Assembly: GCF_004322395.1 (NCBI RefSeq)
Contig: NZ_SCTW01000102.1
Span: 1-64,000, forward strand
Direction: 5' to 3'
Length of the DNA stretch: 64,000 nucleotides
Origin: Methylobacter sp.
GTDB lineage: Bacteria > Pseudomonadota > Gammaproteobacteria > Methylococcales > Methylomonadaceae
This document shows positions 1,050-15,979 of the stretch, in pieces. Made by a program: the position numbers and the translations under genes. How positions within the stretch are numbered: the first letter of the stretch is position 1; each line of letters starts with the position of its first letter. The notes beneath the pieces are model-generated. The model was not told the origin of the DNA, made no database searches, and was given only the letters and a program-made list of their open reading frames with translations.

Positions 1050-1922
1050 ATGAAAACTAAAAAATTGACAGCAAGCGCTGCCGCACTCGCAGCGGTAATG
1101 GGATTGGCAGCAGCAAGTAGCGCAAATGCTTTTACAATTTATCCTGGCCAAAATTTATTGGAGGACGATGATTTTGAATCTCAAGTCGTCGATACTAACG
1201 GCAATAACCAACTTGACGTGGGCGATACGTTAGAAGGTATAGTCAATATTACAAAAATCGTAGGACAAAGCATACCCGGCCTTCCTTTTAATAACGTTCT
1301 AGGCAGTGGAACCCAATTAGCCGCAATCTTCAAGACCGAGGTTACCTCCAGAACCGATATAGTGCCTGGTTTTGCAAATTACAGTTTCGGCACGAAAACG
1401 GGCGAAACATCAATATTCAAGTTTTTCGCACTGAATGCTGAGACATTTCCTTCAAGTGGTGGATGTACATCATTTGCCGCGTGTGAAACTCTTTTAACCG
1501 CAGGCGCATCTGCATGGTGGGAATTTGGCTTTACTGGGGATGCCGATGAAGAATGGAATTCTACAAACACACCAGTGAATCCTGATATCTTCACGGGCGT
1601 TTCAACAAGCTTGGCTTTGGGCAACTTCAAATTTGCACTTGGCCTTATCGACAAGCACAATGCTCCCGATCTTAAATTGGTAGATTTGGATTGCCTACCC
1701 GGAATTCTTTATAACTGCGCAGGCGACGGCAAAGTTCAGCTTGCTGCTAGCGGTTCCGTTTTAGGCACAAAAGAAATTTTGGCCCAAAACCCCAACTTCC
1801 CCTACACCGTATCCAGCGATACCGATTTTCATATCAACGTAGTACCCGAGCCAACCAGTCTAGCTCTACTCGGCGCAGGTCTATTTGGTTTTGGATTCAG
1901 ACAGCGTAAAAACCAAGCTTAA
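1050..1922 (+). CDS. PEP-CTERM sorting domain-containing secreted protein
   Basis: N-terminal signal peptide; C-terminal VVPEPTSLALLGAGLFGFGFRQRKNQA (PEP motif, hydrophobic stretch, basic tail). Confidence 0.92.
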   Translation: MKTKKLTASAAALAAVMGLAAASSANAFTIYPGQNLLEDDDFESQVVDTNGNNQLDVGDTLEGIVNITKIVGQSIPGLPFNNVLGSGTQLAAIFKTEVTSRTDIVPGFANYSFGTKTGETSIFKFFALNAETFPSSGGCTSFAACETLLTAGASAWWEFGFTGDADEEWNSTNTPVNPDIFTGVSTSLALGNFKFALGLIDKHNAPDLKLVDLDCLPGILYNCAGDGKVQLAASGSVLGTKEILAQNPNFPYTVSSDTDFHINVVPEPTSLALLGAGLFGFGFRQRKNQA

Positions 1923-4657: not shown

Positions 4658-5389
4658 ATGACTAAAAGCATTATTGATACCTTTAACGAATATTTCGATA
4701 TAGTACCTGCAATTTCGGACGAGCTTAAAAACGAGGTTTATAAATTGCGTTATCAGGTATATTGCCTTGAAACCGGATTTGAAGACCCCGCTTTACACCC
4801 TGACGGTATGGAATACGACGAGTTTGACAGTCATTCTGTCCATTATCTGATTCGTCATCGAAAACTTGGTGTTTATATGGCAACGACTCGTCTTATCCTG
4901 CCCTGCCCGGAGAACATTGAAAAACTATATCCAATCGAAATATATACAAAAATAGACGATTTTGGAGCGCTAAAACATATATCAAGAAATTGTCTAGCGG
5001 AAGCGTCGAGATTTTGCGTATCAAAGGAGTTTAGACGAAGAAAACATGAGATAAATACCGTATCGGGTATTAGTGAAGAAGTAGAAAAAGTTTTTGCTCA
5101 AGATGAGCGGCGTATTTTTCCTCATCTTACCCTTGCGTTGTTCACCTGTTTAATTAAAATGAGTCGCGAAAACAACGTCCTTGATTGGTATGCAGTTATG
5201 GAACCGGCATTGATACGGGTTTTTTCAAGCATAGGGATGAATTTTATCGGCATCGGTCCATTAACGGATTATCATGGCATGCGGCGTCCTTGTACCATTA
5301 GGGTAGATGATTTGTTGAATGGAGTGGCAAGAAAAAACACAGAATATTGGGATGTGCTAACTAATAAAGGACAGTTCTGGGCCATATAG
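4658..5389 (+). CDS. PEP-CTERM/exosortase system-associated N-acyltransferase (N-acyl amino acid synthase-like)
   Basis: MTKSIIDTFNEYFDIVPAISDELKNEVYKLRYQVYCLETGFED; GNAT/autoinducer-synthase-like N-terminus typical of this family. Confidence 0.85.
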   Translation: MTKSIIDTFNEYFDIVPAISDELKNEVYKLRYQVYCLETGFEDPALHPDGMEYDEFDSHSVHYLIRHRKLGVYMATTRLILPCPENIEKLYPIEIYTKIDDFGALKHISRNCLAEASRFCVSKEFRRRKHEINTVSGISEEVEKVFAQDERRIFPHLTLALFTCLIKMSRENNVLDWYAVMEPALIRVFSSIGMNFIGIGPLTDYHGMRRPCTIRVDDLLNGVARKNTEYWDVLTNKGQFWAI

Positions 5390-10510: not shown

Positions 10511-10912
10511 ATGCTTGTCTTTTTTAAAAATATTCCACCGACTACCCAAAAATCAGATTTGATTGAGGTCATCAAACCTGCTATTAAGCGCAATCTTTTT
10601 TATCGACTTTTTAGTCTTCCAGGAACTATTGTTGATATAACGCTGCTCAATTTATTAGACAATGAACAAAACATACTTAATGCTCATGGCGTAGTCACAA
10701 TAATGCCCGATGATGTTGCATCTCTGGTCATTAAACAGCTTGATAGAAAAGTTGTAAATGGTAGACGTATAACTGTTAGAGAATATCACATTAGATCTGA
10801 ACAAAACGATCCAAGAAGAGCTTCCAACGATATCCCTCAAGACATTATTGATCAACGTGTTGGAGATCGGCGACAATATAAGCTTGTTCCTTGTTTAGGA
10901 ATGCCCGCTTGA
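10511..10912 (+). CDS. RRM-like RNA-binding domain protein
   Basis: MLVFFKNIPPTTQKSDLIEVI...HGVVTIMPDDVASLVIKQLDRKVVNGRRITVREY, an RRM-like alternation, with a basic tail. Confidence 0.55.
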   Translation: MLVFFKNIPPTTQKSDLIEVIKPAIKRNLFYRLFSLPGTIVDITLLNLLDNEQNILNAHGVVTIMPDDVASLVIKQLDRKVVNGRRITVREYHIRSEQNDPRRASNDIPQDIIDQRVGDRRQYKLVPCLGMPA

Positions 10913-11050: not shown

Positions 11051-12571
11051 TTAGTTAACAGTAAGCCAGCTTTGTGCAATATTTTTTAAAAAGAACTGCG
11101 CTTGTTGATAGTCATCACGTGGGGCTTCAGTCAATAAGACAACTTGTAATTCAGATGATGAATCTTTCGATAAGCGTTTAATTAATTGTAGCCACTTAGC
11201 TCGATAAGGGTCAGCTGTATTGTGGGCACCAATTTGATACCAACGCAAAACAACTAAATTTCTTTCGCTTCCGCCAAGTACAGCCTGATCAACCACCAGC
11301 GGTTTATCATCATACTCCTTCAACTGAACAGTGCCGGTTTGAACCGTTTTCCATGCGATATGCTGCGCCGATGTCACCAACACATTCTGTGAATTAACAA
11401 GTTCCGACCCTCCTTGGGATTCTCGTCCAAAGCTTGCCCGATAGACACCGAAAATATCTTGACCATTAGAAAAATACATCATCGAATCCGAACTAACTCC
11501 ATTAAAACGAGGCGTCCATCCCCATTGTGGATCTTGTACAGACTCCCAACCCTTTCCACTGAAAGCAATCTTCTGATCCAGCCCATTATTCTCAGGCATT
11601 TGTTGCACCTTGGATAACCAAACAGAACTTACAGGCCAGATTAAATTTAAAAAACCGACTAAAAATAAAGCCGAAAAAAACGCTTGATTAGCAAAAGTTG
11701 TTACCGTTCCTTGATGAGATATTGATAAATCTTGTGTTTGGGATATTGGCGGATCTTTCCAAAAAGAGCCGAGATAAAACAATAGCATCATTACCAAACC
11801 AAAAAATAATGCGCCGTAAATAATATGATCGACACCCACAGCCAATGTCATATTACTGAAATGTCCTAGCATTACAATTAAAAAGGCACGAATACCGTTA
11901 GCAAAGATAGGCACAATAATAGTAAGCAGCATAAACAATACTCTTTTCCAATAACTGGAAAAAGTAATGTAAGCGTATACAAATCCGAGCGATATCGATG
12001 CAATTAAATAATTGATACCGCTACAAGCTTCAGCAACTGTCCAGTTGCCGGAAGTTAAGGTAAGATTAAGTCCTTCCCGAAAAACTGGAATTCCTGTGAG
12101 GCGGATTAAATACACTGAAAATGTAGCGGTAAATTCCATCAACGGAGCGATAAGATCACTCCCGACAGGAACCATAAAAAAAAGATAACCCAACGGAAAT
12201 AATATTTTTGAGGTGATACGGTCGCCTAGTATTACCCAAAACCCGCTTATTAACATCCCAACAACAGCAAATTGTTTAACAACCTGAATATTAACCAAGT
12301 CCGCAACAAGCCAAAGAAAACCGTTTGCAATTACGGCAATTAACGCTATCCAACTGATTGTCGGACATAAAGCCAGATAAGTACTTCTTCGCGACCAGCA
12401 TAACCATAAACTGATTGGAGCAATGACAAAGCCGTGATTATATGAACTGGAACGATACCAAGTCTCAACAATAGAGCGCCATGTATCAAAGAAGATGGAT
12501 ATTGATAAGAGTGCAATTAAAAACACCCCCCACGCTGCTTTTACCCAGTAATCAGATGACTTCATTAACAA
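11051..12571 (-). CDS. xrtA: exosortase (XrtA-like) with C-terminal EpsI-like domain
   Basis: Multi-TM; EACSGINYLIASISLGFVYAY (catalytic Cys), NGIRAFLIVMLGH (Arg), and His region; C-terminal DUF3485/EpsI-like portion. Confidence 0.88.
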   Translation of the reverse strand: MLMKSSDYWVKAAWGVFLIALLSISIFFDTWRSIVETWYRSSSYNHGFVIAPISLWLCWSRRSTYLALCPTISWIALIAVIANGFLWLVADLVNIQVVKQFAVVGMLISGFWVILGDRITSKILFPLGYLFFMVPVGSDLIAPLMEFTATFSVYLIRLTGIPVFREGLNLTLTSGNWTVAEACSGINYLIASISLGFVYAYITFSSYWKRVLFMLLTIIVPIFANGIRAFLIVMLGHFSNMTLAVGVDHIIYGALFFGLVMMLLFYLGSFWKDPPISQTQDLSISHQGTVTTFANQAFFSALFLVGFLNLIWPVSSVWLSKVQQMPENNGLDQKIAFSGKGWESVQDPQWGWTPRFNGVSSDSMMYFSNGQDIFGVYRASFGRESQGGSELVNSQNVLVTSAQHIAWKTVQTGTVQLKEYDDKPLVVDQAVLGGSERNLVVLRWYQIGAHNTADPYRAKWLQLIKRLSKDSSSELQVVLLTEAPRDDYQQAQFFLKNIAQSWLTVN

Positions 12572-12900
12572 TTCTCTAGCTATAGTTACATCAATGTGGA
12601 AAGGCTAAGTAAAATATCAATTAAATTCTAACATAACATAGTTCAATCGGGCATTTGGCGAGAAGAATAACCGCTAAAAATTTGCTTTAGCTTGCACGAT
12701 ATTTAAGTCGTATATTTCGAGATCGGCTTACACTCCTCAATCAAAAAAATTATGGTATTTACCGGCCTTTTTCTATTAAAAATAATCTCTTGTTTAAACT
12801 CATTTTGCATTACAATGAGACTGAGAACCGAAGTAGACAAAAAAAAGAGTTTTTGTTAACCTTAATAACGTTGGCCAACTTACTTAAAGGTATTACAACA

Positions 12901-13689
12901 ATGAATGCAAAAAGTAATAAAATTGTTAAACCAGACGAAAGCCAAAATGTAAATCAAACAGTTGATAAATCGCGGCGATCGTTTGCCAAAGTAGGGGCGG
13001 TTGCGCCGGTTATCATGACCTTGACCAGTAAGTCGGCGTTGGGCAGCGCCTATCACTGCACAATTTCCGGCACACAATCGGGCAATCATTCCAGTCCCCA
13101 TGATAACACTACAAATTGCGGCGTCGGCTTTTCACCTGGCGGCTGGTGGCAAAATGCCAGTAAATCAGGCAATCAGGATGGAAATATTAACCAATGGTGC
13201 AAAGCAGGGATAAATCCTTTTTCTATTAAATATGCCGCTATCCCCCCGAGCTCGAGCAAAGTTAAGCAGATACAGGTACAGGGCACTTGGATAACTGCAA
13301 CTGCTGCTAACAATTGGCTTTCTATTTTTACGGCTATTAAAAGTAAATTTGGCCAACCGGCAACCGCGACAGCTTTTGCACCGATTTTTGGCGGTAATCT
13401 TCAAGGATCTCTATGGGATGTATTGGATCAACATCAAGGCACCCTGGAATGGCATGCCGTTGCCGATTATCTTAACGCCCTTCTTTATGCAGCCGATCCG
13501 GTGAATTATGCAGGTTTCGGAGTTGTATATAGCGGAGTAAGCGCTTTCGATATCGTCAACCTCTATAAATTGGCAACCGGACAAATCTCTTCTTTTACTT
13601 CGCAAGACGGGGTGTTGATTAATGGCACCTTTAACGGCGGCACCAACGGAAGCGGCGTCAAAAGTTATTTAGAATCGCTTCATCATTAA
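12901..13689 (+). CDS. Tat-signal secreted protein with SPGxW motif, putative cargo of the HPr-rel-A cassette
   Basis: Start taken at internal ATG 12901 (RBS aaagg) rather than 12790; KSRRSFAKVGAVAPVIMTLTSKSALG twin-arginine leader; GVGFSPGGWWQN and EWHAVADYLNALLYA. Confidence 0.7.
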   Translation: MNAKSNKIVKPDESQNVNQTVDKSRRSFAKVGAVAPVIMTLTSKSALGSAYHCTISGTQSGNHSSPHDNTTNCGVGFSPGGWWQNASKSGNQDGNINQWCKAGINPFSIKYAAIPPSSSKVKQIQVQGTWITATAANNWLSIFTAIKSKFGQPATATAFAPIFGGNLQGSLWDVLDQHQGTLEWHAVADYLNALLYAADPVNYAGFGVVYSGVSAFDIVNLYKLATGQISSFTSQDGVLINGTFNGGTNGSGVKSYLESLHH

Positions 13690-13698
13690 TCTTCATAA

Positions 13699-13980
13699 AT
13701 GGAAAGCCCGAGGTCTTGGGAGATTTGTCAAGATTTTGCGATTATTATCCGGATGATTGATGATCAGCGCTTGGTTTATCACACTGGCAGTGGCGACACT
13801 CACTGGCTTGGTGCGGAGTCCGGCTTTGTGTTTGATTTGCTTTGGAAATGCAAAGCGCCAATGAACCATGAATTTTTAATCGCCCAAGCCCGGCAGAATG
13901 GATTTAACCAACTAGATTCGCTATTGCTAGAAGAAATTTTGAAGGGGCTGTGTGCTCTACATTTAGTCAAAATCAGTTGA
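13699..13980 (+). CDS. HPr-rel-A system PqqD-like protein
   Basis: ~93 aa PqqD-like pattern (LGAESGFVFDLLWKCKAPMNHEFLIAQA); sits between the Tat-signal protein and an HprK-like kinase. Confidence 0.75.
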   Translation: MESPRSWEICQDFAIIIRMIDDQRLVYHTGSGDTHWLGAESGFVFDLLWKCKAPMNHEFLIAQARQNGFNQLDSLLLEEILKGLCALHLVKIS

Positions 13981-13986
13981 GTTATT

Positions 13987-14898
13987 TTGAGCACCCTAAA
14001 TTCGCCAACACAATTGATGAATAATGGGCGCTTTATAATAAAGGTTGGCCCTTTTGCGGTACGGATACAATCAGAGATTGAGTCTGTTCAACAAAGCATT
14101 ATTCGTTTGTACTGTGACTATCCTCAGCTGCCTAAAGATAGTTTCTGCGACTTTTATGTCAGAGTGTTCCGTCCTTCCGGGCTTAGACGTTTTTTCCGCA
14201 AACAAGCCCTGTTCGCGTTCGATCAGTTTGTCCCTTTTAAGCCTTTACCCTATTCGCAAGCCTTTCCGTTCTTTGAGTGGGGACTGAACTGGTGTATATC
14301 CGGTTATTCGCACCAGTATTTAATCATTCATGCGGCTGTTGTCGAAAAAAATTCCAAAGCTTTGATCCTGCCTGGCTCGCCGGGTTCGGGTAAAAGCACC
14401 CTATGCGCCTCACTCATTAACAAAGGTTGGCGGCTGCTTTCAGACGAGTTGACTTTAATAGATTGTCTTACCGGCAATATCGTCCCGGTACCTCGCCCGG
14501 TCAGCCTGAAAAATGAATCAATACAACTGATTGCCGACACTTATCCGAACAATGAATTCAGCCCCGTTGTGAACGATACCTTGAAAGGTTCGGTGAGTCT
14601 GATGAAACCGCCGACAGAAGCAGTATCAAGAGCTAATGAAATCGCCTTACCGTGCCTGGTGGTCTTTCCCAAATTCCAACAGCATATTGATATGCAATTA
14701 ACACCGCTGCCTAAAGCGGAAGCTTTTATGAAACTAGCCGACTTGTCTTTCAACTACAGTGTGTTGGGCGCTGAAGGTTTTGAAGTTTTGGCTAAACTGG
14801 TTGAACGAAGCCGCGCTTATGATTTTATCTATGATGGCGACTTTGATCAGGCATCGGCTTGTTTTGAACAGTTGTTGGACGATGTGGAGCATGGATAA
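13987..14898 (+). CDS. HprK-related kinase A
   Basis: LPGSPGSGKSTLCASLINKGWRLLSDELTLID: P-loop and HprK-like DELT motif; TTG start. Confidence 0.82.
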   Translation: MSTLNSPTQLMNNGRFIIKVGPFAVRIQSEIESVQQSIIRLYCDYPQLPKDSFCDFYVRVFRPSGLRRFFRKQALFAFDQFVPFKPLPYSQAFPFFEWGLNWCISGYSHQYLIIHAAVVEKNSKALILPGSPGSGKSTLCASLINKGWRLLSDELTLIDCLTGNIVPVPRPVSLKNESIQLIADTYPNNEFSPVVNDTLKGSVSLMKPPTEAVSRANEIALPCLVVFPKFQQHIDMQLTPLPKAEAFMKLADLSFNYSVLGAEGFEVLAKLVERSRAYDFIYDGDFDQASACFEQLLDDVEHG

Positions 14899-15979
14899 AA
14901 ACATAGCAAATTTGCTCATCAAACAATTGGTTTTTGCGCGCACCGAAGACTGCCATACTAATACCAATTGGGAATTGTTGCTGCGACAGGCAAGAGCTGC
15001 TGGCGTCATGTCCAGATTGGCTTTTTTTTGGAAGAAGTTCGGGATGTTTGAACCGCCCGGATTTGCCGCCACACATCTTAATTCTGCTTATAAATACTGG
15101 CTATCGCAAAAACGTATCGTAAATTGGGAGCTCCATAATCTGCAACAGGTTTTTGAGCAATTGAAGTTGCCGTTAATCTTACTTAAAGGCACTGCTTATT
15201 CGGCTGCGAATTTAAATGCGGATTTGGGGCGGGTTTTTAGCGATATCGACATTCTTGTCCCCAAGCAGCGTTTACAAGAAGTCAAGGAAGCACTAAAGTG
15301 GAACGGGTGGTTCCCAGAGCCGTTAGACAGCTACGATCAAAACTATTATGAGCGCTGGATGCATGAATTACCCCCTATGCGGCATATTCAGCGAGGTACG
15401 ACCTTAGATATTCATCACAATATTCTTCCTGAGACTTGCGCTTTATATCCAGATGCCAATTTGCTGTTAAACTCGGCAGTTAATATTCCCAACAGCAATT
15501 ATTGGATATTGGCTCCTGAGGACATGATTTTACATACAGCAAGCCATTTGTTTTGGGGCGGCGAATTTGAAAACGGCTTGCGCGATTTGAGCGATATTGA
15601 TTTATTACTGCGCGAGTTCAGCGATAAAAATTCGCGGTTTTGGCAAAACTTGCTTGATCGTGCAGACACCTTGGGTTTGGGCAAACCACTATTTTATGCA
15701 TTACGTTATAGCAACAAAATACTGAAAACACCGACCCCTGAATCTATCATTACCGCTTCGATGATTTATTCTCCCGGATCTTCAAAAATCAAGATAATGG
15801 ACTTCCTTTTTCTGCGGGCGCTTAATCCTCCGCATCCGACCTGCAACGATAAGTGGACCGGTTTCGCACGCTGGCTTTTATATATCCGTTCCCACTGGTT
15901 GAAGATGCCTTTGCATTTGCTGATCCCGCATCTATCCAGAAAATCGTGGTTGCGGCTGACTAACCAAGGACACCATTAA
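14891..15979 (+). CDS. nucleotidyltransferase-family protein of the HPr-rel-A cassette
   Basis: Start at ATG 14891 (ATGGATAA overlap with the kinase stop); LLKGTAY...GRVFSDIDILVP matches the NTase5-like family. Confidence 0.82.
   Translation: MDKNIANLLIKQLVFARTEDCHTNTNWELLLRQARAAGVMSRLAFFWKKFGMFEPPGFAATHLNSAYKYWLSQKRIVNWELHNLQQVFEQLKLPLILLKGTAYSAANLNADLGRVFSDIDILVPKQRLQEVKEALKWNGWFPEPLDSYDQNYYERWMHELPPMRHIQRGTTLDIHHNILPETCALYPDANLLLNSAVNIPNSNYWILAPEDMILHTASHLFWGGEFENGLRDLSDIDLLLREFSDKNSRFWQNLLDRADTLGLGKPLFYALRYSNKILKTPTPESIITASMIYSPGSSKIKIMDFLFLRALNPPHPTCNDKWTGFARWLLYIRSHWLKMPLHLLIPHLSRKSWLRLTNQGHH

Follow-up and report, generated by a model that had tools for sequence, protein, structure and literature searches.

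The window analyzed here is a stretch of 64,000 nucleotides from Methylobacter sp. (NCBI RefSeq assembly GCF_004322395.1, contig NZ_SCTW01000102.1, positions 1 to 64,000), in which four close-packed genes on the plus strand encode a protein with a twin-arginine leader (hereafter the cargo), a PqqD-like protein, an HprK-related kinase A and a nucleotidyltransferase. The last three constitute a cassette of the HPr-rel-A type, and our results suggest that the cargo is very probably the substrate of this cassette. The gene order and coordinates described in an earlier note on this DNA, with the gene for exosortase A (XrtA) on the minus strand and the other four on the plus strand, were all confirmed, as listed below.

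11051..12571, minus strand, divergent from the cassette: XrtA (exosortase A) with a C-terminal EpsI-type domain (TIGR03109, 321 bits, cut-off 208; PF09721; PF11984)
12901..13689, plus strand: cargo, a twin-arginine-leader payload protein of class 1, 262 amino acid residues (aa), proposed substrate (related leader-bearing proteins at 113/120 usable kinase loci)
12973..12978, plus strand: codons of R25-R26, the twin arginines of the cargo leader (SRRSFAKVGAVAPVIMTLTSKSALG) (logo of 106 non-redundant cargo leaders; R26 invariant in 36)
13057..13092, plus strand: C53-x2-S56-x3-S60-G-N62-x-S64 of the cargo, proposed modification site (alignment and column counts)
13699..13980, plus strand: PqqD-like protein, 93 aa, predicted fold of a RiPP recognition element (RRE; lasso B1) (TIGR04353, 25.5 bits, sub-cut-off; AlphaFold model; PDB fold matches)
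13987..14898, plus strand: HprK-related kinase A, HprK_rel_A (TIGR04352, 372 bits, cut-off 200)
14891..15979, plus strand: NTP_transf_5 nucleotidyltransferase (PF14907, 164 bits; KG...D118-x-D120)

The kinase gene is listed with a TTG start, with an alternative ATG at 14017, and its end is overlapped by the start of the nucleotidyltransferase gene (ATGGATAA). XrtA flanks the cassette on one side and a UvrB-like gene, so judged from its sequence, on the other. The closest relative of the window kinase, at 93% identity, is found in a Methylobacter metagenome-assembled genome. The 262-aa cargo holds SRRSFAK, GFSPGGWWQN and HAVADYLNALL and had no match in Pfam and NCBIfam up to E = 1. Similarly, no known family was found for the payload classes described below, in NCBIfam for classes 1 and 2 and in Pfam for class 1. 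Sequence relatives in the PDB were sought for the cargo, the kinase and the nucleotidyltransferase, and none was convincing. The structure prediction of the cargo, which was based on 7 sequences, was unusable, with a predicted local distance difference test score (pLDDT) of 45.

The association of the cargo with the cassette was assessed in 274 genomes of the class, of which 27 were kinase-positive (TIGR04352 above cut-off) and 247 were not. A profile built from the leader region alone (48 sequences, 43 positions; match threshold E ≤ 1e-6) matched 25 of the 27 kinase-positive genomes vs. 3 of the 247 kinase-negative genomes. In the two kinase-positive genomes without a match, the kinase lies at a contig end (G259) or the cargo is divergent (G107), and in two of the three kinase-negative genomes with a leader (G101 and G184) more distant HprK-like genes adjoin it. 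Moreover, the window cargo used as query found 18 other genomes, and 17 matches adjoin a kinase gene. The eighteenth, in genome G017 (E 7e-4, internal stop), was the lone candidate for a cargo without cassette; it was spurious and had no proper leader open reading frame (ORF). Among the 274 genomes, no genuine case of the cargo occurring without the cassette, the finding that the earlier note had named as speaking against the association, was obtained with the cargo query.

In addition, 121 kinase loci with long flanks were collected from samples of the order, the class and the phylum; one was truncated, leaving 120 usable. A leader-bearing ORF adjoins the cassette in 113 of these 120 loci, mostly directly upstream of the PqqD-like gene. 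Elsewhere in all flanks, the leader model exceeded 14 bits at two places only, both of which are cargos. The link between cargo and cassette is thus strongly supported and far beyond chance, and the claim of the earlier note that the leader-bearing protein belongs with the HPr-rel-A cassette is supported by the loci as well as by the genomes. Variants of the arrangement were also seen. At locus L120, another cargo gene with the leader lies further upstream, about 2.6 kb from the kinase. Two cassettes are decaying: at L143 the kinase frame is broken up beside transposase-like ORFs, and at L215 a premature stop cuts the cargo.

The leader consensus, taken from the logo of 106 non-redundant cargos, is approximately RRx[LF]xKxGxxxxPVI[LM]TLxSxxAxA. 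These leaders combine a twin-arginine motif, a moderately hydrophobic stretch and an AxA-like site, all of which are traits of substrates of the twin-arginine translocation (Tat) pathway. When 70 cargos were compared with the generic Tat model TIGR01409, 3 had a match at E < 0.1. Judged from these features, the leader appears to be a good Tat signal, with which Tat export would fit. In our judgement, formed without a generic Tat control set, the leader also appears more uniform than Tat function alone would need. A conserved leader followed by a hypervariable payload is the general pattern across the loci. Thus, a trait of ribosomally synthesized and post-translationally modified peptides (RiPPs) is seen in the sequences, namely a ribosomal precursor with a conserved leader, a variable core and adjacent genes for modifying enzymes.

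Behind this one leader type, two classes of payload proteins were recognized, mostly of 130–300 aa and with a serine content of about 9%. Class 1, to which the window cargo belongs, has C-x2-S-x3-S-G-N-x-S right after the leader, often followed by SP-G-x-W and HxVAAxLNA. In an alignment of 36 class 1 sequences with a mean column identity of 19%, only Met1, R26, S60 and S64 were invariant. Both serines were kept in 36/36 cargos, whereas C53 and N62 were not strictly invariant. Class 2 payloads are mostly shorter and have [ST]-C-W-x-S-[FIL], or a variant thereof, as their tail. An alignment of 34 of them (18% mean identity) showed the leader arginine, G137 and the tail serine S174 (34/34) to be invariant. 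The tail motif, scored as [CASTV]xxS[FILVA] with 1–14 residues after the serine, was present in 47/48 cargos of class 2, a class that the motif itself had helped to define; the remaining cargo has a truncated frame. Among shuffled tails the same motif occurred in 27%, and among class 1 cargos in 8/57. As the definition of the classes partly used the tail motif, held-out loci matter. In held-out plasmid loci of Vibrio alfacsensis and Sphingomonas parapaucimobilis the leader was present, together with CMSGNAS or TCFLSV in the cargo, and SGNxS was preserved in the Vibrio plasmid cargo; both cargos carry the database label "hypothetical protein." From these alignments, the invariant serines are likely acceptor sites. 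The SPG-W/LNA body, to which the earlier note had pointed, is not the hallmark of the protein but characterizes one payload type only, and nearly half of the cassettes have unrelated payloads behind the same leader.

Both enzymes look active, judging from their conserved residues. The catalytic residues H115, P-loop K136, D153 and E154 of the kinase were invariant in 121/121 sequences, and K99, G100, D118 and D120 of the nucleotidyltransferase in 102/102. At locus L231 the two enzymes are encoded in a single ORF of 706 aa. Payload classes were assigned from motifs, some by eye, before a kinase tree was built. In this tree (n = 104), payload class changes once, vs. a mean of 34.6 for shuffled classes, and the branch dividing the classes has low support. 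Families f1 and f2, both from the order of the window, each hold both payload classes. Because of the single class change and the mixed composition of f1 and f2, kinase lineage goes with where the invariant serine lies and what surrounds it, and not with species. Additional genes were observed at some loci. A gene for a TPR-sulfotransferase, a possible extra tailoring enzyme, lies directly after the kinase gene at L149:3128-4828 and eight other loci. A gene for a trypsin-like serine protease, which could process the cargo, lies upstream of the cargo at L212:10107-10859 and 18 other loci; the latter loci include both payload classes and are mostly outside exopolysaccharide clusters.

The PqqD-like protein of the window scored 25.5 bits against TIGR04353, whose cut-off is 35. 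Its AlphaFold model had a pLDDT of 91, and the best fold matches in the PDB were complexes of TbiB1 with leader (E 2e-4, template modelling scores 0.68/0.72), followed by other RRE domains; 5v1v, 5v1u and 6jx3 were the entries listed. The confident model thus predicts the fold of leader-binding RREs, which speaks for leader binding by the PqqD-like protein. Comparison of Methylomonas LW13 (L022:7150-7980) with M. fluvii (L023) showed DNA identities of 89–100% in the leader and mostly 93–99% in the kinase and nucleotidyltransferase genes, whereas those of the payload were 32–54% and those of the PqqD gene 54–72%, between flanks of 89–100%. It looks as if payload and PqqD gene had been swapped as one block. 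Co-divergence of PqqD and payload as a general rule was rejected, as it was weaker over 45 closer pairs than the Methylomonas pair implied. In those pairs, the Spearman correlation of PqqD identity was 0.57 with kinase, 0.43 with payload and 0.40 with leader identity. Given that PqqD identity tracks the kinase at least as well as the payload, fast drift explains much of the divergence.

Among the further matches of the leader profile were short peptides of 56–149 aa, for instance SRRSFIKKAAYIAPVVLTLKASPSMAYNYGS..., beside more distant HprK-like kinases that score far under the TIGR04352 cut-off. They are encoded at L238:4576-4746, L240:5986-6267 (an orphan), L241:4923-5369 and L242:6673-6840. 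The peptides at L238, L241 and L242, and also L237, lie beside such kinases, PqqD-like proteins or, in two cases, nucleotidyltransferase-like ORFs. The peptides share the consensus SRRxFIKKAAYxAPxxLTLxAxPSxA, then GS, for which there is no NCBIfam model. By these features, the loci look like a possible sister RiPP-like system with peptide-sized substrates, which would strengthen the RiPP reading of the cassette.

XrtA was found above cut-off in 22 of the 27 kinase-positive genomes vs. 29 of the 247 others (odds ratio 33, p 4e-14, with genomes treated as independent). However, XrtA was found within about 7–8 kb of the cassette at 0/120 other loci and is a direct neighbor in the window genome only, which rules it out as a fixed physical partner. 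Thus, of the tie between exosortase and cassette described in the earlier note, co-occurrence in genomes stands and adjacency as a rule does not. About 40 of the 121 loci lie near exopolysaccharide genes of the exosortase type. Neighboring genes were clustered by BLAST and one representative per cluster was identified. By this approach, the TIGR03088 glycosyltransferase was found near 41 of the 121 loci, the XrtA amidotransferase (TIGR03108) 39, TIGR03087 29 and FemAB (TIGR03019) 19; among accessory neighbors, the trypsin-like protease gene accounts for 19 and the TPR-sulfotransferase gene for 9. Methylomonas LW13 makes less exopolysaccharide when its exosortase gene epsH is disrupted, and the polysaccharide band disappears when an exosortase-associated acyltransferase is disrupted (PMC11072679). 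LW13 also carries the cassette (L022), which makes a role of the cargo at the surface or in exopolysaccharide plausible. Outside the cassette, the window also contains the following genes.

4658..5389, plus strand: PEP-CTERM/exosortase-associated acyltransferase near XrtA, exosortase context (TIGR03694, 258 bits)
1050..1922, plus strand: PEP-CTERM protein, distantly like the floc-associated PepA (PF07589, 32.6 bits)

Moreover, an ORF of 133 aa at 10511-10912, between efflux genes and XrtA, had weak matches only (RRM_1, 14 bits).

Related combinations of proteins are known from lasso peptide systems. There, a single precursor with a leader is acted on by an RRE of the B1 type together with an HPr-type kinase and sometimes a nucleotidyltransferase (PMC9266682, a review). 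The lasso kinases PadeK, ThcoK and SyanK phosphorylate, and even polyphosphorylate, the C-terminal serine of the precursor via a His-Lys-Asp-Asp motif, and PsmN puts hexoses on the phosphoserine of pseudomycoidin (PMC9266682). Similar lasso clusters have also been described (PMC7533575; PMC10368454). Because the same three parts are found here, modification of a cargo serine by the kinase and the nucleotidyltransferase, followed by Tat export, is proposed. The conserved export leader, variable body and invariant serine likewise indicate that the cargo is probably a protein modified by the cassette. The four plus-strand genes would then form a RiPP-style protein-modification pathway, and the cargo would be made with its conserved twin-arginine leader. 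The PqqD-like RRE protein would capture the precursor in the cytoplasm, by its leader or the stretch next to it, and pass it on to the enzymes. There, the HprK-type kinase would phosphorylate the invariant serine, i.e., S60 and/or S64 in class 1 and the CxxS[FIL] serine in class 2, a step toward which we lean slightly. The NTP_transf_5 enzyme may elaborate the phosphate by adding a nucleotide or sugar, like PsmN on pseudomycoidin; its action on phosphoserine is suggested more tentatively, at somewhat below even likelihood. The folded product would be exported by Tat and lose its leader by cleavage at the AxA-like site. It would then act at the cell surface, probably together with the exopolysaccharide of XrtA-type organisms. 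Taken as a whole, the sequence of RRE-guided phosphorylation, elaboration and Tat export is, in our view, on balance the probable one.

Several observations weigh against this pathway. The kinase is present without a recognized cargo at 7 of the 120 usable loci, and it has a Glu at the place of the second Asp of the lasso kinases. The SGNxS spacing is not strictly kept at some class 1 loci. A structural role of the invariant serines is conceivable, the class 2 serine usually lying three residues past a cysteine. Shared operon history could give the same match between kinase tree and payload class, which is thus support and not proof. Finally, in the clearest pair, LW13 and M. fluvii, the PqqD-like protein diverges with the payload and not with the leader, which leaves leader capture as a proposal. 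That payload and PqqD gene diverge together between flanks 89–100% identical would also suit a cognate, exchangeable pair of effector and guard or chaperone, in which variability serves kin or phage recognition and the enzymes only arm the payload. Given that PqqD tracks the kinase (0.57) at least as well as the payload (0.43) over the 45 pairs, we consider such a pair very unlikely.

The Tat-like character of the leader could also mean that the PqqD-like protein serves the cargo as a Tat-specific chaperone, comparable to the redox-enzyme maturation proteins. The kinase and nucleotidyltransferase would then share no more than an operon with the cargo and have another target, such as a regulatory phosphate or a precursor of exopolysaccharide. 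NCBI names the PqqD-like protein a peptide chaperone, and exopolysaccharide genes (stp1, stp2, XrtA amidotransferase and FemAB) surround many loci, although many others lie outside such clusters. The match of kinase lineage with payload motif class, the invariant serines of the cargo and the joint use of RRE, kinase and nucleotidyltransferase on one precursor in lasso systems all argue for the cargo as the target of the enzymes, so that a chaperone of this kind is unlikely, if worth keeping in mind. The modified residue or the chemistry might differ as well, with the nucleotidyltransferase nucleotidylating the cargo, or the accessory TPR-sulfotransferase sulfating it, and the kinase being regulatory. 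Conserved C53 and N62 (an N-x-S sequon) stand beside the serines, and the sulfotransferase gene directly follows the kinase gene in 9 loci. However, most loci are without a sulfotransferase, and it is the serines that are invariant, C53 and N62 not strictly so; this alternative therefore appears decidedly unlikely. Phosphorylation of the serine with subsequent elaboration and Tat export remains our preferred explanation, and the roles that the earlier note proposed for the genes are supported in part.

A cargo gene annotated as hypothetical thus identifies the likely substrate of an orphan cassette that is found in many Pseudomonadota genomes, and with a named gene, a leader and a candidate acceptor serine the substrate becomes testable. 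If the proposed pathway is true, tailoring by lasso-type kinase and nucleotidyltransferase would be a general way of modifying proteins that is coupled to Tat export, and exosortase/exopolysaccharide systems may receive modified surface proteins from it. That Tat-exported phosphoglycoproteins or nucleotidyl-proteins with exchangeable payloads are widespread in Pseudomonadota, made by lasso-type enzymes (RRE, HprK kinase and NTP_transf_5) on whole proteins at an invariant serine and tied to exosortase and exopolysaccharide, is possible but doubtful at present.

Among known systems, the trio of the window agrees with HPr-rel-A (TIGR04352 kinase A, TIGR04353 PqqD family peptide chaperone and nucleotidyltransferase) in kinase model, gene order and nucleotidyltransferase. 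In the NCBI records consulted, the annotation names PqqD and kinase only; the leader-bearing cargo, its classes and the invariant serines are added by the present analysis. No paper on the HPr-rel-A system or TIGR04352 was found in the literature searched, nor one that links PqqD with HprK, with exosortase and a kinase, or with Tat and RiPPs. The cassette co-occurs strongly with the PEP-CTERM/exosortase A system across genomes, and in the window XrtA is a neighbor and PEP-CTERM genes are present. Different from PEP-CTERM proteins, however, the cargo is without a PEP-CTERM tail (no PF07589 match) and has an N-terminal Tat-like leader instead. The kinase is weakly related to that of SynChlorMet (kinase-like ScmC and PqqD-like ScmD), with 31.8 bits against TIGR04249 vs. 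a cut-off of 125, but no radical SAM gene is found among the cassette genes.

With lasso tailoring the cassette shares the RRE fold, an HprK-type kinase with the H-K-D motif, a nucleotidyltransferase and a leader-bearing precursor, and the serine of class 2 cargos is likewise at or near the C-terminus. Different from lasso clusters, the cassette genes match no B2 peptidase or lasso cyclase family in a scan of Pfam and NCBIfam, and class 1 cargos have their serines near the mature N-terminus. Moreover, lasso precursors are short with a macrolactam-forming core, whereas the window cargo has 262 aa and a Tat-like leader. By analogy, we propose that this system represents lasso-style tailoring parts applied to proteins with a Tat leader.

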